This document shows, in pieces, positions 51,071 through 60,996 of a stretch of 64,000 bases of DNA. The notes under the pieces were generated by a model. The model searched no databases. It was given only the letters and a program-made list of their open reading frames with translations, and was not told the origin of the DNA. Each line of letters starts with the position of its first letter. Within the stretch, counting starts at the first letter, position 1. A program made the translations under genes and the position numbers. The stretch is from positions 124,001 through 188,000 of the forward strand of contig NZ_JAGEMK010000006.1 in NCBI RefSeq assembly GCF_017565425.1. Direction: 5' to 3'. Origin of the DNA: Actinotalea soli. GTDB taxonomy: Bacteria > Actinomycetota > Actinomycetes > Actinomycetales > Cellulomonadaceae.

Positions 51071-51897
51071 ATGAAGATCGCGAACATCTCCGGACGGTGC
51101 GCGTGGACGATGGCCATGAACACGATCGCGTCGAAGAGGAGGTGGACGATCAGCACCAGGGTCAGGGACCGGGTGCGCATGAAGATCAGGCCCTGGAGCA
51201 GCGCGAACGGGATGGTGAGGGCCGGCCCCCACTCGCGGTAGCCCAGCTCCCACAGGAAGGACACGAAGATCGTCGCCTGCAGGAGGTTCGCCTGCCAGGC
51301 CGGGAAGTGACGCAGCAGCAGCGCGAAGCACAGGCAGATGAAGAACAGCTCGTCCCAGGTGCCCACCGCGTTCACCCCGACGAAGAACCTCATCAGCACG
51401 CTGCTGTCGGTGATCTCGGGCCAGTTCTGGTAGGCCCCCGAGGTGATGAAGTAGAACGGCAGGATCGCCCAGCCGAGCAGCGGCACCGCCAGGAGGTACC
51501 ACTTCTCGACGGTCGGCCACTTCTCCCCGGTGCGCCACGGGAACCGGATCGCCCGACGGCGGTACACGAACCGGTCCACGAGGAAGGGCACCAGGACCGC
51601 GAGGGTCAGGGCCGTGCCGATGGCGAAGAACCGGTCCCACTCGAGGTCGGCCTCCATCGAGGTGGTGCTGACGATGCTGATGCCCAGGGCGATGAGGAAC
51701 AGGTCCTTGGCGAGCGGGCGGTGGACCAGGTAGGCGAGGACCAGGCTGAGCACCAGGACGACGTACCCGTGCGGCCTCAGGTGCACCCCGAACAGCAGCA
51801 CCGCCGAGGCCGAGACCCCGGCGGCCGGCAGCAGCGCCCAGCGGGGGGCGAGCGCCGTCCCGGTGTCGGGATCGGTGGAGGTCGTCGTGGCCGGCAC
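51064..51897 (-). CDS. CPBP-like intramembrane protease homologue
   Basis: This 277-residue protein has eight or so hydrophobic helices. A CPBP/Abi-like core shows WDELFFICLCFALLLR where family members have EExxxR, and FALLQGLIFMRTRSLTLVLIVHLLFD, with the later conserved His. The first motif has a single Glu rather than a Glu pair, so activity is doubtful. The family includes CAAX-type proteases and immunity proteins. The start is GTG at 51897. It is convergent with the MFS gene and divergent from the AAA ATPase. Confidence 0.72.
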   Translation of the reverse strand: MPATTTSTDPDTGTALAPRWALLPAAGVSASAVLLFGVHLRPHGYVVLVLSLVLAYLVHRPLAKDLFLIALGISIVSTTSMEADLEWDRFFAIGTALTLAVLVPFLVDRFVYRRRAIRFPWRTGEKWPTVEKWYLLAVPLLGWAILPFYFITSGAYQNWPEITDSSVLMRFFVGVNAVGTWDELFFICLCFALLLRHFPAWQANLLQATIFVSFLWELGYREWGPALTIPFALLQGLIFMRTRSLTLVLIVHLLFDAIVFMAIVHAHRPEMFAIFIY

Positions 51898-51977
51898 GTG
51901 GACAGCATGCCGTGGTGCGTGGCGGGCTGCAGCGTGGGCGTCACCCCCGTGTCACGCCCACCCCCTACAGTCGCCGC

Positions 51978-53087
51978 ATGATCCGGACCGTCGCCGTCGC
52001 GGGCTACCGCTCGCTCCAGTACCTGGTCGCCGGGCTCGACCGGCTGACCGTCGTGACCGGGGCGAACGGCACCGGCAAGACGAGCGTCTACCGCGCCCTG
52101 CGCCTGCTCGCCGACCTCACCCGCGACGGGGCGCTGACGACCCTCGCGCAGGACGGCGGCATGAGGTCGGCGATGTACGCGGGGCCGTACACGGGCAAGC
52201 GGGTCGGCATCCAGCTGGGCTTCGCGAGCGACGACCTGTCCTACGCGATCGACCTCGGGCTGCCGCAGCCGGGCGCGACCCTCTTCGGGCTGGACCCGGA
52301 GATCAAGGTCGAGGCGGTCTGGGCCGGGCCCGTGCTGCGCCCTGCGAGCGTTCTCGCCGACCGTCACGGCACCCGGGTGCGCACCCGGGGTGACGACGGC
52401 GCGTGGCGGACGGCCGCGTGGAGGCTGGGGACGCACGAGTCCCTGATGTCCGCCCTCGCGGACCCGTCGGAGACCCCCGAGCTCTACGCGATCCGGGAGC
52501 AGGCCAAGGGGTGGCGGTTCTACGACCACATGCGCACCGACCCTGACGCCGTCGCGCGGCGGCCGGGCATCGCGACCTTCACGCCGGTGCTGGCTCCGGG
52601 CGGGGAAGACCTCGCAGCGGCCCTGACCACCATCGAGCGTGTCGGAGACGCGGACCTGCTCGCCACGACGGTGGCGGACGCCTTCGACGGGGCGACACTC
52701 GAGCTCGCGGAGGGCGAGGACGGCACCTGCCGCATCCTGCTGCACCAACCCGGTCTGCGTCGGCCACTCGGAGCCCCCGAGCTCTCCGACGGCACCCTGC
52801 GCTACCTGATGCTGGTCGCTGCCTTGCTGTCCCCGCGCCCGCCGGGCCTGCTGGTGCTCAACGAGCCCGAGCAGAGCCTGCACCCGAGCCTGCTGCCGGC
52901 CCTCGCCGCCCTCGTCCTGGACGCCGCCGAGCGCTCGCAGGTCGTGGTCGTGACCCACGCGGGCGATCTGGTGCGTGCGCTGCGACCCGAGGCTCAGGTC
53001 CTCGAGCTCGAGCGCACGAACGGGTCGACGACCATCGCCGGCCAGCTCACCTTCGAGGGCCCCGCCTGGACCTGGCCCTCCCGCTGA
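51978..53087 (+). CDS. AAA ATPase (SMC/RecF-like, AAA_21)
   Basis: A 369-residue P-loop ATPase. Walker A GANGTGKT is at residues 28-35; an ABC-type signature-like segment PELSDGTLRYLMLVAALLS is followed by Walker B LLVLNEPEQSLHPSLL and a switch His in VVVVTHAGDLV. This is the OLD/RecF-like arrangement without a TOPRIM or other nuclease domain. ATG at 51978 stands 6 nt after TACAGT, suggesting a leaderless transcript. No partner gene is visible, so a role in DNA repair, defence or metabolism cannot be chosen. Confidence 0.83.
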   Translation: MIRTVAVAGYRSLQYLVAGLDRLTVVTGANGTGKTSVYRALRLLADLTRDGALTTLAQDGGMRSAMYAGPYTGKRVGIQLGFASDDLSYAIDLGLPQPGATLFGLDPEIKVEAVWAGPVLRPASVLADRHGTRVRTRGDDGAWRTAAWRLGTHESLMSALADPSETPELYAIREQAKGWRFYDHMRTDPDAVARRPGIATFTPVLAPGGEDLAAALTTIERVGDADLLATTVADAFDGATLELAEGEDGTCRILLHQPGLRRPLGAPELSDGTLRYLMLVAALLSPRPPGLLVLNEPEQSLHPSLLPALAALVLDAAERSQVVVVTHAGDLVRALRPEAQVLELERTNGSTTIAGQLTFEGPAWTWPSR

Positions 53088-53113
53088 GCCCTCCGACCCT
53101 CGCGTCACCGCAT

Positions 53114-53163
53114 CTCGTGTCAGACGCTCGGATACCTGGGGGTACCTGACCTTCTGACACGAG
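53114..53163. repeat. 50-bp hairpin repeat, copy 1
   Basis: The outer arms CTCGTGTCAGA and TTCTGACACGAG pair, and the inner arms carry GGATACC / GGTACC around a TGGG loop. It lies between the convergent AAA ATPase and oxidoreductase genes. Of the five copies its arms are the second most divergent. Confidence 0.85.
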
Positions 53164-53174
53164 GTGGGGGCGGG

Positions 53175-53846
53175 TCAGGGGGTGGTGCGCGATGCCGTGG
53201 AGAGCTCGGTGCCGGCGCGGGGACGCGGACGACGTCGGGCGTCCCTGCGGCCCATCTCCTCGACGCGGGCCAGCCAGGCCGCGCGCTTCTCGGCGGACGA
53301 GAAGCGCACCCGAGGCAGGCGGGTGACGCCGACGGTCTTGACCCCGCAGTACCAGAGCACGGCCTGGGTCAGGGAGGTGACGGCCGCGCGGCGGTACTTG
53401 ACGGTGTCCCACCACGCCGGGCTGTCCATCGTCATGATCACCCGGGCGGTGCGGCCGGTCAGGCGCTTGTCCCACAGGGCCGAGCTCTCGCGGTAGGCGA
53501 AGGCGAACCGGGAGAGGAACACCCGGTCCACGTACCCCTTGAGCACCGCGGGGTAGGTGCCCCACCACTGCGGGAACACGAAGACCAGGTGGTCGGCCTC
53601 GCGCACCCCGTCGATCATCTGCTCGACCTCGGGCTCGCGGGCCGGGTCCTGGTCGGGACCGTGCCAGCGCAGCAGGCTGGGCTCGCGCGAGGCGAGGTCG
53701 AAGTCGGTCTCGCCGAGGCGCAGGACCGTGACCTCGGCCCCCGCGGCGCGGGCGCCGGCGGCGTAGGCCTCGGCGAGACCTCCGCACAGGCTGTCGCTCC
53801 GGGGGTGGCCGAGGACGACGAGGATGCGGGGTCGGGCGGGGATCAT
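53175..53846 (-). CDS. Flavodoxin-fold NAD(P)H dehydrogenase (quinone reductase-like)
   Basis: A 223-residue flavodoxin-like protein of the NQO/KefF type with ILVVLGHPRSDSLCGGLAEAY for FMN phosphate binding, VFVFPQWWGTYPAVLKGYVDRVF, and an Arg-rich C-terminus. It transfers electrons from NAD(P)H to quinones or electrophiles via FMN. ATG at 53846 overlaps the MarR stop (ATGA), so it is co-transcribed with its probable regulator, a common arrangement for electrophile- or quinone-sensing systems. A 50-bp hairpin repeat lies 11 bp past its stop. Confidence 0.88.
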   Translation of the reverse strand: MIPARPRILVVLGHPRSDSLCGGLAEAYAAGARAAGAEVTVLRLGETDFDLASREPSLLRWHGPDQDPAREPEVEQMIDGVREADHLVFVFPQWWGTYPAVLKGYVDRVFLSRFAFAYRESSALWDKRLTGRTARVIMTMDSPAWWDTVKYRRAAVTSLTQAVLWYCGVKTVGVTRLPRVRFSSAEKRAAWLARVEEMGRRDARRRPRPRAGTELSTASRTTP

Positions 53847-54277
53847 GAGGGGGTTCCCTTCGAGAGGACGGCGTCGAGCATGAGGAGCACGTCGGCGTGG
53901 GTGCGCTCGAGGTCGAGGTCCGACCTGTCGGCGAACATCTGGGTGAACTCGGCGTCGAGCAGGCCACCGGCCTCGTGGGCGAGACGCAGGCCCTCGTCGG
54001 TCAGGGTGAGGAGCACGCGTCGGGCGTTGGCGGGGTCGGCGACCGTGCGGACGTAGCCCTTGGCCTCGAGGCCGGGCACCCGCTTGCTCACGGCGGCCTT
54101 GGAGACGCCGAGGCACTCGGCCATGCGCGTGATGTCGAGGGGCTGGCCGTCCTCGAGGACCGCCAGGAAGGTGAACTGGCTGGTGGTGATCCCCCAGCGC
54201 TCGGTGAGCACCCCGTCGGCGTAGGCGTTGATCGCCGTGACGAGATGGTTCAACGAGTAGGTGATGCGTCCGCTCAT
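53843..54277 (-). CDS. MarR-family transcriptional regulator
   Basis: A 144-residue winged-helix repressor (RITYSLNHLVTAINAYADGVLTERWG dimer helix; LDITRMAECLGVSKAAVSKRVPGLEAKGYVRTVADPANARRVLLTLTDEG, the winged helix, at about 60-110). ATG at 54277 begins the conserved part; the longer frame would run through the operators and a hairpin repeat. Two 14-bp palindromes 8 bp upstream of the start probably bind it. It overlaps the oxidoreductase gene, its likely main target. Confidence 0.9.
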   Translation of the reverse strand: MSGRITYSLNHLVTAINAYADGVLTERWGITTSQFTFLAVLEDGQPLDITRMAECLGVSKAAVSKRVPGLEAKGYVRTVADPANARRVLLTLTDEGLRLAHEAGGLLDAEFTQMFADRSDLDLERTHADVLLMLDAVLSKGTPS

Positions 54278-54284
54278 GCAACAA

Positions 54285-54321
54285 GTCAACGGGTTGACAA
54301 CCAACGTGTCAACCCGTTGAC
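54285..54321. promoter_or_regulatory. Paired MarR operators
   Basis: GTCAACGGGTTGAC (54285-54298) and GTCAACCCGTTGAC (54308-54321) are each palindromic except at the centre and are exact reverse complements of each other. Their centres are 23 bp apart. They overlap the probable marR promoter, so they should mediate autorepression. Confidence 0.75.
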
Positions 54322-54338
54322 ACCACCCGTCCCCACGC

Positions 54339-54388
54339 CTCGTGTCAGAACCCGGGGTACCCAGAGGTATCCCAGGTTCTGACACGAG
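54339..54388. repeat. 50-bp hairpin repeat, copy 2
   Basis: Two 23-nt arms starting CTCGTGTCAGAACC pair around the loop CAGA; inner arms end GGGGTACC and GGTATCCC. It is the outer member of a tandem pair 3' of the PL11 gene, 12 bp from copy 3. Confidence 0.9.
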
Positions 54389-54400
54389 GTAGGGGCGCGG

Positions 54401-54450
54401 CTCGTGTCAGAACCTCAGGACCCTGGGGGCACCTGAGGTTCTGACACGAG
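54401..54450. repeat. 50-bp hairpin repeat, copy 3
   Basis: The arms CTCGTGTCAGAACCTCAGG and CCTGAGGTTCTGACACGAG pair without mismatch for 19 bp; the loop is TGGG. It ends 7 bp from the PL11 stop codon. The bases CTCAGG differ from the other copies but change together in both arms. Confidence 0.9.
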
Positions 54451-54457
54451 GTCGGGG

Positions 54458-57400
54458 TTAGTTGACGCGGACCGTGATCTCTCGGGTCTCGGTCACCCCC
54501 GCCGCGTTCTCGAGCTCGGCGAGGTAGGTGTACTGCCCAGGCGCCCGACCCGTGATCTCGGTGCGCGCCTGCTGGGCGCCCGGGGTCGCGGCGACGAGGT
54601 CCTGGGAGTCGATCAGCTCGCCGTCCTCGAACAACCGGTACGCGGTGGCGTTGGTGCCCCACCACATGTTCATCGTCACGGTGTAGTCCCCGTCCCGGTC
54701 CCAGTTGTCGTGCGAGAGCGTGCCCCGTGCCGGGTCGGCGTCGGTCACCCGCACCGTGTGCTCGCGGGAGGTGGAGGTCCCCGCGGCGTTGACCAGCTCC
54801 GCGGTGTACACGTACGTCCCGTTCGCCTTGCCCGTCACCGGGACGGCGATCCGCTGGGCCGAGGGCGTGTCGTCCTCGAGAAGCTCCGAGTGGATCAGCT
54901 CACCGTCCTCGTACAGCCGGAACACCGTCCCGTTCTGCCCCCACCACAGGTTCGCCGTGACGGTGAAGTCACCGTCACGCAGCCCCGTGTCGTGCCCGTT
55001 GTCATCACTCAGCGCGACCTGCCCCGGGGCAGCGTCGGGCACCTGCGGGCCGGCGTGCTCACCCACCGTGCGGATGCTCGGCGCCGCCGGGGCAGCCATG
55101 CCCTCACCGAGGAAGAAGCTCGGGTGCGGGGGCTGGTTGTAGGCCACGTTCTGCCAGGCCACCGCCAGGCGGTACTGCGAGTCGTGCATGAGCGTGCGGA
55201 TGCGGTGCTCGGTCACGTCCGTGGTGGTGAAGACCCGCAGGGCCGAGGAGTCCTCGGTCCGGTAGACGAGCTCCTCGCGCCAGTCGCCGAACAGGTCCGC
55301 CTGCAGGGCTGGGGTGCCCTTGGTGTCGTTGTTCGACAGGACGCCCTCTGGCCGCAGGATCTCCACGGCCTCCTCGTTCTCCCAGTCCCACGTCGCGATG
55401 GTCGGCTCACCCGTGCGAGGGCCGTCGTCGAAGTCGTGGTCGGTGATCTCCCGGAGCAGGTCACCGTCCCACCAGGTCAGGAAGTTCGCGGCCGGGATCT
55501 TCTCGCCGATGAGCGTGCCGTCCGCCGCGACCATGTGTCCCACGGTCGAGTTCCACGCGTAGTCCCCGCCGATCGCCCAGGACTCAGCCCCCTCGTAGCG
55601 GGGGTCGATGTCCCCCGAGGCACCGCGGCCGGTGTCACGGTTGCCCGGGAGGTCCCAGATGATCTCGCCGGTGGCGAGGTCACGCATGGCGCCGGCCCGG
55701 TTGCCCGAGCAGCTCATGCACTCGTAGACCTGGAAGACCTCGAGGCCCGGACGCGACGGGATGAGGTCGCCCACGTGCATGGCGTCCCCGTGCCCCAGCC
55801 CCGCGTTGTTGAGCACCGTGCCGTCGTCGTCGATGGTGAGGGCGCCGAAGATGATCTCGTCCTTCTGGTCGCCGTCGGCGTCGGCCACCGAGAGCTGGTG
55901 GTTGCCCTGACCGGCGTACTGGTTACCGGCCACGTCGGAGTCGAAGACCCACCGCTCGACGAGCTCGTCGTCGACGACGTCCCAGGCCGCGATGACTGTC
56001 CGGGTGTAGTAGCCGCGCGAGAAGATCACGCTCGGGCTCTCGCCGTCGAGGTACGCGACCCCCGCGAGGAACCTGTCGACGCGGTTGCCGTAGGTGTCAC
56101 CCCAGGAGCCGACGTTGCCCCGCGGCGGGACGTAGTCGACCGTGTCGAGGGCGACGCCCGTCTCCCCCTCGAAGAGGGTCAGGTACTCAGGGCCGCTCAG
56201 CACGTAGCCGCCGGAGTTGCGGTGGTCGGCCTCGGCGTCCCCGATGACGGTGCCCGCCCCGTCGACGGTCGCGTCCGCGGTCTTCATCGTGACCTCGGCC
56301 TTCCCGTCGCCGTCCAGGTCGTAGACCATCAGCTGGGTGTAGTGGGCCCCGGCCCGGATGTTGCGGCCCAGGTCGATCCGCCACAGCTGCTCGCCGCCCA
56401 GGGTGTAGGCGTCGACGTAGACGTTGCCGGTGTAGCCGGCGCGCGAGTTGTCCTGCGCGTTCGAAGGGTTCCACAGCAGGACGACCTCGTACTGCCCGTC
56501 CCCGTCGAGGTCACCGACGCTCGCGTCCCCCGCGCTGTACGTGTACTCCTCGCCCGAGGGGGTGACGCCGCCCTCGGGCTTGTTCAGCGGGATGTCGAGG
56601 TGACCGTCGGCCCAGACCTCGAAGGCCTCGGTCGCATCCGCCTCGGTGCCCTCGCCGACCACGGTGACGCGGTAGGTCGAGTCGACGGCGCCGTCCTCGT
56701 CGAGCAGGTTCGTCGAGCCGGTGAGCGGCGCGTCGTTGATCCGCACGCCGTCGCGGTAGACGTTGAAGGCCACCGAGTCCGGGTCGGTGCCGAGCTGGCG
56801 CCAGCCCACGTACACGCCGTCGTCGGTGGCCACGGCCACGGGCGAGCGATCCAGGTACTCGGCCTCGCGGACCAGGGTGGTCACCGCGGGGGTGGTCAGG
56901 ACCTCGGAGTACTCCGAGGAGCCCCCTGCGCTGATCGCCGCGACCCGGTAGTGGTACTCGACCGTGGTGAGCACGTCGGTGTCCGTGAAGGAGGCGTCCG
57001 TGACGCGCTCGACCGTCGAGAACGGCCCGTCCGCGCGCGTGGCACGCTGCACGTCGTAGGCGATCGCGCCGTCGACCGGCTGCCAGGTGAAGCTCAGCCG
57101 GTCACGCTCGACCTCGCCCACCGCGAGGCCCGACGGCGCGGGCGGGGCCTCGACCCCGTCCTCGACGACGGCGACCTCGAGGGGCTCGCTGGTGCGTCCC
57201 ACGCGCCCGTCGGCGTCGAGCCCGGTCACGGTGTACTCGTAGCGACCGGCCAGGACGACGTCGGTGTCGGTGAAGCCGGTGCCCTCCTGCTCGCTGACGG
57301 TCTGCGGCTCACCGCCCGGGACGGCGCGGTCGACGCGGTAGCCGGCGAGCTGCTCGCTCGCGTCCCACGCGAGGGTGACCGACGGCGGGTCGGTGGTGAC

Positions 57401-57994
57401 CTCGGTCGCGACCAGGCCGGTGGGGGCCGGGAGCGCCGACTGGATGGTGATCCCGTTGAGCCGTGGCGAGCTGCCTCCGACCAGGATGGTCATCTGGCCG
57501 TCCTCGACCACGACCGGGTCGAAGACGCGCTCGTTGATGACTGCGGAGCCGGCGCCCTGGTCTCCGTAGGCCACCCCCTCGATCGTGTAAGTGGTGCGCG
57601 AGGAGGCGATGTGGTCCCCCGACCACGTGGTGACGGTGTACTCGCCGTCGGGCAGGTCGACGGCGAACTCGGCGCCGTCGCCGACGGGCGGCAGCACGAA
57701 GTCACGGCGCAGGGCGTCCACGGCCGAGCCACGGTCCCGGTCGTTGAGCTGACCGAGGGGGGTGGTGAACCCGAAACCGGTCTCGGCGTCGTAGGCCATG
57801 GCTCGGGTGACGGCGGTGAACCCCTCGGCGACCGGGGCGCCCGCGGGCTGGAAGTCGAAGCGCAGGTCGACCGGGCCGTCGCCCGGGTCTGCCGCCGCGG
57901 TGGGCATGACCGCCATGGTGGCGACCATGGCCCCGGCGGCGGCCAGGGCGGTGGGGACGACGCGCGATCGGCGCCGTGGGACGGGTGGTGTCAT
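54458..57994 (-). CDS. Secreted multidomain rhamnogalacturonan lyase, PL11
   Basis: A 1,178-residue enzyme cleaving the rhamnosyl-galacturonate backbone of rhamnogalacturonan-I. Order: signal peptide (PTALAAAGAMVATMAVMPTAAA), a beta-sandwich carbohydrate-binding-type domain (about 38-200), two fibronectin type III domains (about 205-380), the eight-bladed PL11 propeller (about 385-990) and two C-terminal beta domains of the kind found on chitinases and glucanases (repeats of TVTxNxWWGxNxTxxRLxEDGEL). PL11 motifs include GDASVGDLDGDGQYEVVLLWNPSNAQDN, GRNIRAGAHYTQLMVYDLDGDGKAEV and SVADADGDQKDEIIFG calcium loops. ATG at 57994 has GGGAGC upstream and begins the signal peptide. LacI-type sites lie about 120 bp upstream, and pairs of 50-bp hairpins flank the gene. 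Confidence 0.92.
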   Translation of the reverse strand: MTPPVPRRRSRVVPTALAAAGAMVATMAVMPTAAADPGDGPVDLRFDFQPAGAPVAEGFTAVTRAMAYDAETGFGFTTPLGQLNDRDRGSAVDALRRDFVLPPVGDGAEFAVDLPDGEYTVTTWSGDHIASSRTTYTIEGVAYGDQGAGSAVINERVFDPVVVEDGQMTILVGGSSPRLNGITIQSALPAPTGLVATEVTTDPPSVTLAWDASEQLAGYRVDRAVPGGEPQTVSEQEGTGFTDTDVVLAGRYEYTVTGLDADGRVGRTSEPLEVAVVEDGVEAPPAPSGLAVGEVERDRLSFTWQPVDGAIAYDVQRATRADGPFSTVERVTDASFTDTDVLTTVEYHYRVAAISAGGSSEYSEVLTTPAVTTLVREAEYLDRSPVAVATDDGVYVGWRQLGTDPDSVAFNVYRDGVRINDAPLTGSTNLLDEDGAVDSTYRVTVVGEGTEADATEAFEVWADGHLDIPLNKPEGGVTPSGEEYTYSAGDASVGDLDGDGQYEVVLLWNPSNAQDNSRAGYTGNVYVDAYTLGGEQLWRIDLGRNIRAGAHYTQLMVYDLDGDGKAEVTMKTADATVDGAGTVIGDAEADHRNSGGYVLSGPEYLTLFEGETGVALDTVDYVPPRGNVGSWGDTYGNRVDRFLAGVAYLDGESPSVIFSRGYYTRTVIAAWDVVDDELVERWVFDSDVAGNQYAGQGNHQLSVADADGDQKDEIIFGALTIDDDGTVLNNAGLGHGDAMHVGDLIPSRPGLEVFQVYECMSCSGNRAGAMRDLATGEIIWDLPGNRDTGRGASGDIDPRYEGAESWAIGGDYAWNSTVGHMVAADGTLIGEKIPAANFLTWWDGDLLREITDHDFDDGPRTGEPTIATWDWENEEAVEILRPEGVLSNNDTKGTPALQADLFGDWREELVYRTEDSSALRVFTTTDVTEHRIRTLMHDSQYRLAVAWQNVAYNQPPHPSFFLGEGMAAPAAPSIRTVGEHAGPQVPDAAPGQVALSDDNGHDTGLRDGDFTVTANLWWGQNGTVFRLYEDGELIHSELLEDDTPSAQRIAVPVTGKANGTYVYTAELVNAAGTSTSREHTVRVTDADPARGTLSHDNWDRDGDYTVTMNMWWGTNATAYRLFEDGELIDSQDLVAATPGAQQARTEITGRAPGQYTYLAELENAAGVTETREITVRVN

Positions 57995-58113
57995 CGGAGC
58001 TGCTCCCGGTGGTGGGTCGGCCCGGCGCCAGGCGCCCGCGGGGCGGGCCGGGGGCAGCCCCGTCGGGGCGGCGCTCCGACCCTCTCCTCGGTGATCGACG
58101 TTGATGGACCGAG

Positions 58114-58125
58114 TGAATCGTTTCA
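58114..58125. promoter_or_regulatory. TGAAwCGTT operator upstream of PL11
   Basis: TGAATCGTTTCA is a LacI-type inverted repeat (TGAA/TTCA arms, CG centre), 120 bp upstream of the PL11 ATG. The core is shared with the GH112 and lldD/ABC sites. Confidence 0.6.
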
Positions 58126-58131
58126 TGGATA

Positions 58132-58148
58132 CGGGAAGCGCATTCCCG
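58132..58148. promoter_or_regulatory. Second palindrome upstream of PL11
   Basis: CGGGAAGCGCATTCCCG has perfect CGGGAA/TTCCCG arms around GCGCA, 6 bp beyond the TGAAwCGTT site. It resembles the palindrome at 32076-32091. Confidence 0.55.
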
Positions 58149-58198
58149 CGGTCACTGTTTACCAACCCCGAGGCGCCAAGGTCAACGCCCCGCCCCAA

Positions 58199-58248
58199 CT
58201 CGTGTCAGAAGGAGAGATACCCGGAGCGCCCCCAGCTTCTGACCCGAG
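58199..58248. repeat. 50-bp hairpin repeat, copy 4 (divergent)
   Basis: Same length and frame as the others, arms beginning CTCGTGTCAGAAG and ending CTTCTGACCCGAG, loop CGGA. The inner arms (GATACC versus GCGCCCCC) pair poorly, so this is the most decayed copy. Confidence 0.85.
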
Positions 58249-58259
58249 ATCCCGCACCC

Positions 58260-58309
58260 CTCGTGTCAGAACCTCATATACCTCTAGGTATCCAGGGTTC
58301 TGACACGAG
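58260..58309. repeat. 50-bp hairpin repeat, copy 5
   Basis: Arms CTCGTGTCAGAACC and GGTTCTGACACGAG pair; inner arms carry ATACC / GGTAT around TCTA. It is 11 bp from copy 4, forming a tandem pair 5' of PL11 that mirrors the pair on its 3' side, and lies 70 bp past the YghZ-like stop. Confidence 0.9.
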
Positions 58310-58379
58310 ATCTGCGGGGGTGCGGCGAGGGGCCGGGGCGGAGGGTGGGGGCGCGGCGTGCTCGCGCTGAGCGGTCCGG

Positions 58380-59411
58380 CTAGCGGGCCGTGCCGTCGAC
58401 GGCGTGCTCCTCGATCGCGGTGAGCTCGGCGGCGGTGAGCGCGGGGCCGCGCAGGGCCGCCACGTTGTCCTCGAGCTGGGCGACGCTGCTGGCCCCGATG
58501 ATCGCCGAGGTGACCCGCTCGTCGCGCAGCACCCAGCTGAGCGCGAGCTGGGCCAGGCTCTGCCCGCGCTGCTCGGCGATCGCGGCCAGGCCCCGGGCCC
58601 GCTCGAGGTAGGTCTCGGAGATCCGCTCGGGCCGCAGGAAGTGCCCGACGGCGGCCCGCGACCCCTCGGGCACGTCGCCCGACAGGTACTTCCCGGTAAG
58701 CATGCCCTGGGCGAGCGGGCTGAACACGATCATCCCCACACCCAGGTCACCGACGGCGTCGAGCAGGCTCTCCTGCTGCCCGTCGGCGACCTTCTCGACG
58801 TGCCGGTTGAACATCGAGTAGCTCGGCTGGTGGATGAGCAGCGGGGTGCCCATCTCCCCCAGGATCCGCGCGGCCTCCCGGGTGGCCGAGGGCGAGTAGT
58901 TCGACACCCCCGCGTACAGCGCGCGCCCGCTGGTGACCGCGGTGTGCAGGGCCCCCATGGTCTCCTCGAGCGGGACCGTGGGGTCGGGGCGGTGCGAGTA
59001 GAAGATGTCGACGTACTCGAGGCCCGTGCGGCGCAACGACTGGTCGAGGGAGGACAGCAGGTACTTGCGCGAGCCACCGTCGCCGTAGGGCCCGGGCCAC
59101 ATGTCGTACCCGGCCTTGGAGGACACGACGAGCTCGTCGCGGTAGGGGCGCAGGTCGCGCGCGAGCACCTGGCCGAAGGTCTCCTCCGCGGCGCCGTAGG
59201 GCGGGCCGTAGTTGTTCGCGAGGTCGAGGTGGGTGATACCCAGGTCGAAGGCACGGAGCAGGATCGCGCGCTGGGTCTCGTACCGGTGGCCGTGGCCGAA
59301 GTTGTGCCACAGCCCGAGGCTCAGCGCGGGCAGGTCCAGCCCGCTGCGCCCGGTGCGGCGGTAGGTCATCGAGGCGTAGCGGTCGTCGGCAGCGACGTGG
59401 GGAGTGGTCAC
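58380..59411 (-). CDS. YghZ-like aldo/keto reductase (L-glyceraldehyde-3-phosphate reductase type)
   Basis: A 343-residue NADPH-dependent reductase with strong segment-by-segment likeness to E. coli YghZ: LDLANNYGPPYGAAEETFG (Asp/Tyr of the AKR site), VSSKAGYDMWPGPYGDGGSRKYLLSSLDQSLRR, VDIFYSHRPDPTVPLEETMGAL (catalytic His) and VFSPLAQGMLTGKYL. The family reduces L-glyceraldehyde 3-phosphate, methylglyoxal and other aldehydes. The start is GTG at 59411. It stands alone, divergent from a sugar porter whose promoter shares the 94-bp gap. A detoxifying role beside sugar catabolism is likely. Confidence 0.88.
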   Translation of the reverse strand: MTTPHVAADDRYASMTYRRTGRSGLDLPALSLGLWHNFGHGHRYETQRAILLRAFDLGITHLDLANNYGPPYGAAEETFGQVLARDLRPYRDELVVSSKAGYDMWPGPYGDGGSRKYLLSSLDQSLRRTGLEYVDIFYSHRPDPTVPLEETMGALHTAVTSGRALYAGVSNYSPSATREAARILGEMGTPLLIHQPSYSMFNRHVEKVADGQQESLLDAVGDLGVGMIVFSPLAQGMLTGKYLSGDVPEGSRAAVGHFLRPERISETYLERARGLAAIAEQRGQSLAQLALSWVLRDERVTSAIIGASSVAQLEDNVAALRGPALTAAELTAIEEHAVDGTAR

Positions 59412-59505
59412 GGCAGCACGCTACCGGTGCCCACCGACGAGGGCCGCGGAGTGCCGCCGACGCGCTCCGATGGTGGCCGAACCCCAGCAGGCTTACGTTG
59501 CCCCC

Positions 59506-60996
59506 ATGGCTCACGACCAGGGTTCCGCAGACCAGTCATCATCCTCCTCGTCGGGGTCACCCGACGAGGAGCGGTACAACACCTCGCGCGCAGTGCTGCT
59601 CGCGGCCGTCGCGGCCCTGGGCGGGTTCCTGTTCGGGTTCGACACCGCGGTCATCAACGGTGCGGTCACGGCCATCCGCGAGGAGTTCGGCATGGGCTCG
59701 GGCCTGACCGGCTTCGCGGTCGCCTCGGCCCTGCTGGGCTGCGCCCTCGGGGCGTGGCTGGCCGGTCGCCTGGCCGACCGCCAGGGCCGTGTCCGCGTGA
59801 TGATGCTGGCCTCGGCCCTCTTCACCATCAGCGCGATCGGCTCCGGTCTCGCCCAGGGGCCCTGGGACCTCATCCTGTGGCGCGTGATCGGCGGGCTCGG
59901 CGTCGGCGCCGCCTCGGTGATCGCCCCGGCCTACATCGCGGAGATCTCCCCCGCGAGCATCCGGGGTCGTCTCGGCTCGCTGCAGCAGCTCGCGATCGTC
60001 ATCGGCATCTTCGTGGCGCTGCTGTCGAACTACTTCATCGCGACCAGCGCGGGCGGTGCGGGCCAGCCCTCGCTCTTCGGCCTCGAGGCCTGGCGCGTGA
60101 TGTTCATGACCGAGCTGATCCCGGCCGTCGCCTACGGGCTCCTCGCGCTCACCATCCCCGAGTCCCCGCGGTACCTCGTCTCCCAGGGGGAGGACCGCAC
60201 CGCACGCAAGGTCCTCGGCTCGGTCCTCAGGTCCGGGATCGACGAGCGCCTCCGCGAGATCAAGCGCACCGTCTCGCGCGAGACGCGGTCCTCGGTACGC
60301 GACCTCAAGGGCCCGGCCCTGGGTCTGCTGCCGATCGTCTGGGTCGGGATCCTGCTGTCGTTGTTCCAGCAGTTCGTCGGGATCAACGTGATCTTCTACT
60401 ACTCCTCGGCGCTGTGGCAGCAGGTGGGCTTCAGCGAGGAGGACTCGATGGCGGTCACCGTCATCACCTCGGTCACGAACATCGTCGTGACGCTGATCGC
60501 GATCGCCTTCATCGACAAGGTCGGACGACGGCGCCTGCTCCTCACCGGGTCGGCGGGCATGTTCGTGAGCCTGGGCGCCCTGGCGTGGATCTTCGCGACG
60601 GCGCCGCTCGAGGACGGCGAGCCGGCCCTCACAGGGACAGCGGGCACCGTGGCGCTGATCGCCGCGAACCTCTTCGTGGTGTTCTTCGGGATGTCCTGGG
60701 GGCCGACGGTGTGGGTGCTGCTCGGGGAGATGTTCACCAACCGGATCCGGGCCAGCGCCCTCGGGGTCGCGGCCGGGGCCCAGTGGCTCGGCAACTTCGC
60801 CATCTCGACGACGTTCCCGATCCTCGCCGACGCCGGCCTGGGCATCGCCTACGGCCTGTACACGACCTTCGCGCTGCTCTCCTTCTTCTTCGTCTGGCTC
60901 TTCGTCCCCGAGACCAAGGGCCGCCAGCTCGAGGACATGGTCGACACGGGCGGTCGCGTGCGCCGCGACCGGCCCGCCCCGGCCACCCCCGGCTGA
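59506..60996 (+). CDS. Sugar porter family MFS symporter
   Basis: A 496-residue, twelve-helix proton/sugar symporter of the XylE/GalP type. It has a Ser/Asp-rich N-terminus, GGFLFGFDTAVINGAV in helix 1, GRLADRQGRVRVM, PAYIAEISPASIRGRLGSLQQLAIVIGI, PESPRYLVSQG, QQFVGINVIFYYSS and the C-terminal VPETKGRQLEDM. These match sugar porters at every signature. The substrate (xylose, galactose, arabinose or inositol) is not decidable by eye. ATG at 59506 follows TACGTT by 6 nt, so the transcript is probably leaderless. Confidence 0.92.
   Translation: MAHDQGSADQSSSSSSGSPDEERYNTSRAVLLAAVAALGGFLFGFDTAVINGAVTAIREEFGMGSGLTGFAVASALLGCALGAWLAGRLADRQGRVRVMMLASALFTISAIGSGLAQGPWDLILWRVIGGLGVGAASVIAPAYIAEISPASIRGRLGSLQQLAIVIGIFVALLSNYFIATSAGGAGQPSLFGLEAWRVMFMTELIPAVAYGLLALTIPESPRYLVSQGEDRTARKVLGSVLRSGIDERLREIKRTVSRETRSSVRDLKGPALGLLPIVWVGILLSLFQQFVGINVIFYYSSALWQQVGFSEEDSMAVTVITSVTNIVVTLIAIAFIDKVGRRRLLLTGSAGMFVSLGALAWIFATAPLEDGEPALTGTAGTVALIAANLFVVFFGMSWGPTVWVLLGEMFTNRIRASALGVAAGAQWLGNFAISTTFPILADAGLGIAYGLYTTFALLSFFFVWLFVPETKGRQLEDMVDTGGRVRRDRPAPATPG

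Follow-up and report, generated by a model that had tools for sequence, protein, structure and literature searches.

REP-like palindromes of Actinotalea soli and other actinomycetes, with an AbiEi-DUF559 protein as candidate mobilising enzyme

The window examined here, a stretch of 64,000 nucleotides from Actinotalea soli, contains five 50-bp hairpins. Sequence comparison suggests that these are probably copies of a non-autonomous mobile palindrome resembling the repetitive extragenic palindromic (REP) sequences and Rickettsia palindromic elements (RPE), and that a protein combining an AbiEi-like domain with a DUF559-type nuclease is the candidate for the mobilising enzyme.

The palindrome family and its candidate partner gene

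A first-pass annotation of the window had advised a search of the whole genome, and this yielded dozens of copies, the family not being confined to the five sites. The exact pattern was present in 42 copies in the source genome (G000; 32 contigs, 3.63 Mb) compared with none for its reversed control; the search admitted lengths of 46-54 bp and all matches listed were of 50 bp. A covariance model increased the number to at least 72 full-length copies, each again of 50 bp and with two partial matches excluded; the model scored 150 of 3179 candidates, so that weak copies were possibly missed. All 110 occurrences of GTGTCAGAA in this genome were inside the 72 copies (110/110), and the unit is therefore the whole palindrome rather than the word. 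A DNA uptake sequence was rejected as an explanation since no free single words were found. The constant part of the family is the pair of outer words TGTCAG ... CTGACA, with a fixed 42 bp between outer ends; in the source genome the outer words take the form CTCGTGTCAGA and the extension gives 50 bp.

Attempts to establish the distribution of the family depended on the stringency of the pattern used. The exact form of the source genome was found in 2/59 genomes (the source genome is counted within this and the other totals for distribution). In named genomes, the exact pattern was matched in 16 stretches from Actinotalea sp. C106, a member of the Cellulomonadaceae, and in a single one from Oerskovia turbata. 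The pattern TGTCAGA-N(24-32)-TCTGACA was found in 49 of 298 relatives and, at the level of the class, in 26 of 394 genomes, many of which had single, possibly chance, matches. TGTCAG-N30-CTGACA was found in 67 of the 298 genomes, with three or more copies in 44 and one or two in 23, and its reversed control gave one match in each of five genomes and none in the rest. The highest counts for this pattern were in G174 (200), G206 (98), G109 (88) and G096, which is Oerskovia turbata (79). Within the genus of the source organism 17 of 19 genomes had no copies by this pattern; the distribution is patchy. Among the matches listed, multi-copy sets were almost all of 42 bp, with G166 at 43; the pair at position 7 was A:T, C:G or G:C depending on the family, with some mixed copies, and pairs of copies with a start-to-start distance of 60-63 bp recurred across genera. 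Beside the TGTCAGA type, G206 carries palindromes of a second type, TGTCAGG...CCTGACA, in which the core is GTAT (L221:2130, L223:3455, L225:442, L230:1120). A viral origin was considered and rejected, since none of the 119 viral contigs that matched a 14-base pattern had eight or more of 12 inner pairs. Copies 2 and 3 of the window had no match in plasmid or phage collections. A literature search found no paper on this palindrome family by title or abstract start; RepRanger is described as counting REPs in three Actinomycetota genomes (PMC12306157).

A comparison across genomes of the genes near copies revealed a protein of ~290-316 residues encoded between copies in G000, G109, G206 and G493. 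The gene in the source genome is:

C32, L077:2706-3641: candidate partner gene, between copies

Counted systematically, with genes called by a simple script that used codon usage and had been trained on the window (which makes this and all other intragenic and context counts approximate), 21 of 788 called genes were doubly flanked, i.e. had copies no more than 250 nt away on both sides. The only doubly flanked family that recurred across genera was of the AbiEi-like/DUF559 type, and it did so in G000, G109, G166, G190, G206 and G493. A profile made from the first four members and searched against 416 sources (2.5 Mb) found four more, in G190, G155, G108 and G524, and the member in G166, found through the comparison of flanked genes and not by the four-member profile, matches that of G190 at 31% over 299 residues. 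The nine genomes represent seven genera and three families, and in all nine the gene lies between copies. The genes of G493 and G166 run into a copy, that of G493 (at 1231) lying in the 3' end of the gene, and a copy in G524 (at 903) was missed with exact words. Five of the nine members come from a later sample, collected once the idea of a partner gene had been formed; it covers 80 stretches with 130 copies and gives a partial view of 15 genomes, a member being found in 5/15. Of the 253 complete genes in this sample seven were doubly flanked, three belonging to the AbiEi-DUF559 family. Another doubly flanked call, G178 L380:2031-3002, was rejected, being unrelated to the candidate nuclease and matching nothing.

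Six aligned members share an invariant E, D, ExDG..H and D..R, a signature of the Vsr/DUF559 type. PADLOC AbiEi models matched 6/6 members (G166 at 1.2e-10), and Pfam DUF559 was above the cut-off for G166 (1.3e-10) and G493 (9.6e-6); at E values up to 0.1 the DUF559 profile matched 3/6 members. PHROGs gave a single match to one member (0.00077), no relative of the candidate nuclease was found in the viral contigs and NCBIfam gave no match for the members. DUF559 is reported to occur often in Vsr-like PD-(D/E)XK endonucleases (PMC12907096).

The first-pass annotation had pointed to a REP-associated transposase (RAYT) of the Y1 family as the protein to look for. None was found: the Y1 profile (PF01797) at an E value of 0.001 matched in 0/52 genomes, at least 23 of which have copies, and in 5/14 control genomes. 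RAYT genes are reported to be always flanked by two REPs (PMC2817692), and it is this position that a different gene occupies here. The occurrence of a putative DNA-binding nuclease in a RAYT-like position is the basis of a proposed mechanism. The outer words would be recognised by the N-terminal AbiEi-like domain, and the nuclease would make a nick or a break in the extruded palindrome or in a target; through repair the element would then be copied into that break or inserted again. On this view the autonomous unit would consist of the gene and the copies on either side of it, and the other copies would be passengers, host selection leaving copies where they are least harmful. Whether the family is a second and independently evolved kind of REP system, in which a Vsr-like nuclease with an AbiEi-type DNA-binding domain takes the place of the HUH (Y1) transposase, seems to us evenly balanced on the sequence evidence. 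Vsr enzymes are described as nicking at T.G mispairs (PMC12907096). Where the inner arms differ in copies of the source genome, one folded strand has G.T mispairs and the other A.C, and as a guess this may link arm asymmetry to the enzyme.

It became apparent from the locus behind a NUDIX/phosphatase-like gene that sites differ between genomes. The source genome has a pair of copies, the candidate gene and a second pair there, Actinotalea sp. C106 has one copy, and the congeners G003 and G006 have no palindrome, with gaps of 26 and 11 nt between matched blocks. Copies with their own inner sequences are found at this place in G109 and G206, which belong to other genera. Behind the same locus (L077:3796-3875, C32 of the source genome) a block of ~80 bp shows 90-96% identity among several congeners; it contains no called tRNA, has no Rfam match up to E = 1 and is possibly an unknown RNA. 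Between the source genome and C106, several segments were present or absent exactly between copies (window 53164-54338; L048 vs L008; L077 vs C64), at loci chosen for containing copies, and tandem units varied in number.

Such modules bear on the strongest alternative, which we consider unlikely: that the palindromes are REP-like but moved by another enzyme, and that the AbiEi-DUF559 gene is a frequent passenger, e.g. a defence or selfish gene entering palindromes by recombination. AbiEi-type models belong to a phage-defence library, the presence or absence of gene-sized modules means that any gene can come between copies, and genes resembling those for uracil-DNA glycosylase, elongation factor G, acetyltransferase and flavin adenine dinucleotide (FAD) oxidoreductase also do so. 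One of these, a uracil-DNA-glycosylase superfamily gene (L064:2619-3464), lies between copies in the source genome and is absent among the doubly flanked genes of other genera; the elongation-factor-G-like gene (L060:3308-5362) lies between copies in both the source genome and C106. A mere passenger, however, would have to be reconciled with the AbiEi-DUF559 family being the only doubly flanked one to recur across genera, and in three taxonomic families, with a G493 neighbourhood that by eye is unlike the NUDIX locus and with G166, where two of the five copies (by pattern) are around the gene.

Positions, fold and history of the copies

The 72 copies in the source genome are distributed over 25 convergent gaps, 36 same-direction gaps, three divergent gaps and eight positions inside genes. 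Many are 4-30 nt behind a stop codon. Of the eight intragenic copies three are in E2 acyltransferase and two in an HrpA helicase, with one each in Mfd, a MaoC-domain protein and an Fe-S protein. All eight are in frame, in one phase, and encode ~17 residues reading LVSE..SDT or a close variant. The same phase was used by 26 of 27 intragenic copies in other genomes and by 50/50 in the later sample, making 84/85 overall, and the sole exception (phase 0) belongs to the nuclease gene of G493, of which it is the 3' end. Stop-free readings in the source genome numbered 118/144 for the phase used, 139/144 for a second and 0/144 for the third. The Mfd insert aligns to a gap in Mycobacterium tuberculosis Mfd (6aca) and the first HrpA insert to a gap in Escherichia coli HrpA; C106 has palindromes at both HrpA sites, and an HrpA-like gene in G023 has inserts with their own inner sequence at what seems by eye to be the same point. 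Spacings seen in coding arrays (72, 54, 63 and 141) are multiples of three. Read from the sequences, this in-frame pattern looks like that of an inserting element filtered by selection. In the E2 linker (L054:1561-3069 vs L012 of C106) a single copy and a 72-bp-spaced pair have, by eye, seemingly swapped places, a change of copy number inside a protein between sister species.

The first-pass annotation took changes on both sides of the inner arm as a sign that the folded form is maintained, and this fails in the source genome. Among 35 copies from there and five from G005, both-sided changes numbered four pairs compared with 7.7 in shuffles. Arms within one copy of the source genome were less alike than re-dealt arms (4.88 vs 4.38 mismatches, P ~0.006, four duplicate copies excluded), and RNA folding energies were the same as those of arm chimeras (-31.97 vs -32.04). 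The arms differ because copies have a direction: in same-direction gaps the ATAC-bearing arm was on the side of the upstream gene 22 times and on the opposite side twice. The 5' arm is the better conserved one in this genome. The strand bearing G.U pairs was the sense strand in eight and the antisense strand in 13 codirectional copies, which gives no sign of selection for a fold in the sense RNA. The check for covariation was positive elsewhere, with arms agreeing within copies in G206 (P 0.005) and G493 (0/3000 shuffles), and negative again in G109 and in five copies of G174. Agreement where it occurs could reflect selection for the hairpin or palindrome-templated mutation.

The same annotation's statement that the outer word is far more conserved than the inner part was borne out. 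For 18 copies paired one-to-one between the source genome and C106 (12 of 30 C106 copies being excluded as ambiguous or poorly flanked), 3/396 outer, 73/504 inner and 157/1332 positions of the 40-nt flanks differed. Judged by these counts there is constraint on the outer word, whereas the inner part changes much as the neighbouring sequence does.

It is very unlikely that the family represents conserved transcription terminators or 3' RNA hairpins. Sequence-conserved terminators have reportedly been described for mycobacteria, 61 of the 72 copies are in convergent or same-direction gaps with three in divergent ones, many are close behind a stop and most of the window hairpins are stable. However, there is no clear T-run, the next 10 nt of 36 codirectional copies containing a mean of 1.86 T (maximum five) vs ~1.3 expected for this base composition, and pairing in the source genome is no better than in arm chimeras. 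Of the later-sample copies, 50/130 are inside called genes, and no hairpin is present at the empty site in G003 and G006. The palindromes had no Rfam match at the gathering score; 14 permissive matches were mostly to microRNA and snoRNA families, by hairpin shape. A conserved RNA 3' hairpin, one of the two options originally put forward for the five copies, cannot account for in-frame copies in proteins or for empty sites. Recombination sites of cassettes, like integron attC, that flank exchangeable genes are highly improbable: between G000 and C106 there are gene-sized segments whose presence or absence is delimited exactly by copies, and copies lie at gene 3' ends in one orientation, but many copies are solitary or within proteins and plain homologous recombination between 50-bp repeats would account for the segments.

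A number of observations count against a mobile palindrome served by the AbiEi-DUF559 protein. Most comparable copies are common to the source genome and C106, which gives no sign of present-day activity: 21 of the 23 source-genome clusters with both flanks located in C106 stretches also have palindromes there, although those stretches were found through their copies. The loci compared revealed neither a target-site duplication nor a recent hop, and places shared across genera, as at the NUDIX locus, could reflect sites of long standing and not hops. In C106, which has at least 30 copies, the gene has been lost at the NUDIX locus; it may lie elsewhere. Two of the nine members are broken, that of G155 being without the nuclease core and that of G524, from the third taxonomic family, frameshifted. 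Pfam gave no match for the members in G000, G109, G206 and G108 and no DUF559 for G190, AbiEi_4 matches were below the Pfam cut-off, and matches to solved structures were weak (0.02 for the endonuclease-like protein 3hrl and 0.52 for the mobile intron protein 3r3p). Most loci searched for the gene were picked for containing copies, the exceptions being congener stretches homologous to two source-genome loci and viral stretches, and the flanking therefore shows position and not exclusivity, as homologues without flanking copies would be missed. The 22:2 orientation bias behind genes is not accounted for by this reading, and tandem copies make the 24 cases partly dependent. The low divergence of the outer words is partly by construction, because copies are recognised by these words (in C106 with up to three changes in 16). 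Finally, the gene caller detects intragenic copies solely where a frame stays open. Counts per locus vary slightly as copy filters vary between analyses, e.g. a copy beside a cystathionine-synthase-like gene in L063 was dropped in one locus count.

The five copies in the window and their genes

All five copies were confirmed where the first-pass annotation had placed them, each of 50 bp. They and their neighbours are as follows, genes being own simple gene calls:

51978..53087, + strand: gene, with its stop 26 nt before copy 1
53114..53163: palindromic element copy 1, single, between convergent genes
53175..54277, - strand: between copies 1 and 2, a module of two genes, 53175-53846 (by eye flavodoxin-like) and 53843-54277 (by eye MarR-like)
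54339..54388: palindromic element copy 2, first of a tandem pair with a 62-bp period
54401..54450: palindromic element copy 3, second of the pair, with the stop of gene 54458-57928 7 nt away
54458..57928, - strand: between copy pairs 2-3 and 4-5, a large gene that by eye is polysaccharide-lyase-like
58199..58248: palindromic element copy 4, the most degenerate (15/23 pairs), first of a tandem pair with a 61-bp period
58260..58309: palindromic element copy 5, second of the pair, with the stop of gene 58380-59411 70 nt away
58380..59411, - strand: gene, aldo/keto-reductase-like by eye, its stop facing copies 4-5

The closeness of the copies to stop codons was upheld, the nearest facing stops being 26 and 11 nt from copy 1 (two genes) and 69, 7, 131 and 70 nt from copies 2-5. 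That no copy is in a gene holds for these five, but not for the genome, where 8/72 are intragenic. Arms of 23 nt are present in each copy as described, but pairing is imperfect, with 19, 21, 21, 15 and 19 Watson-Crick pairs of 23 in copies 1-5. The 12-nt outer word CTCGTGTCAGAA, with no more than one mismatch, has 10 sites in the window, all within the five copies and eight of them exact; the arms at 53114 and 58237 are each one base off. When two mismatches were allowed there were 12 sites compared with a mean of 4.46 in shuffles.

Copy 2 is identical at 49 of 50 positions to the matching copy in Actinotalea sp. C106 (L010:4015). The module 53175-54277 is missing at the matching place in C106, where both flanks join at one copy pair, and in the congener G003 its best match is located elsewhere. 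The gene modules between copies in the window (51500-60500) have their best matches at three separate places on one contig of G003 (C11).

Relation to known repeats and implications

The suggestion that the repeats are REP/BIME-like (BIME, bacterial interspersed mosaic element) stood as regards their class, there being dozens of copies at gene 3' ends, in regular pairs and with a patchy distribution, and failed as regards a RAYT. REPs with RAYTs, as described in PMC2817692 and PMC3733652, are likewise short palindromes in tens to hundreds per genome that lie behind stops, in convergent and same-direction gaps and in pairs, and there too the associated gene is flanked by two repeats; here it is of a different protein family and was found in nine genomes. 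The present elements differ in being of 42-50 bp compared with 20-40 bp for REPs, in that the flanked gene is AbiEi-DUF559 nuclease-like, with no Y1 found in 52 genomes, and in having actinomycetes as hosts; a word search of the main text of PMC2817692 and PMC3733652 gave no occurrence of 'actinobacter'. Di Nocera et al. described REPs that lie a short way behind genes and also within genes for repair proteins and helicases (PMC3733652). The CGTC-tagged REPs in that work, which include RPE-4 and RPE-6 of Rickettsia conorii, are similar in having no dedicated transposase known and in having in-frame copies in proteins, many of them in repair genes, some with TGTC in place of CGTC (PMC3733652). 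Compared by description, they differ in having stems of 8-9 bp with unpaired tags and tails (PMC3733652), whereas the arms here are of ~19-23 bp and there is a candidate partner gene. RPEs, also compared by description, are similarly palindromic and inserted in frame into proteins (PMC3733652), but occur in another bacterial phylum, and the elements described here are also abundant between genes. The candidate partner shares the ExDG..H..D signature with Vsr-like/DUF559 nucleases and with EDxHD homing endonucleases, and differs from them in its additional AbiEi-like domain and its location between palindromes. The flanks of 34 oriented copies of the source genome had neither a GTAG nor a CGTC tag, only a weak symmetric AC/AT beside the palindrome. 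Because the elements fail the tests for a tag and for Y1 they are termed REP-like and not REPs.

To our knowledge REP elements are known with one class of enzyme, and some REP families with none. A large actinomycete family with a nuclease-like gene of another kind recurring between its copies would mean that repeats of this sort had more than one origin and, if the association is true, would provide a testable partner and suggest what to seek in REP families that have none, e.g. the CGTC REPs. The repeats bound gene segments that differ between sister species, and the single-phase, in-frame copies form a natural series of peptide insertions in the conserved proteins Mfd, HrpA and E2 that can tell where proteins tolerate insertions.

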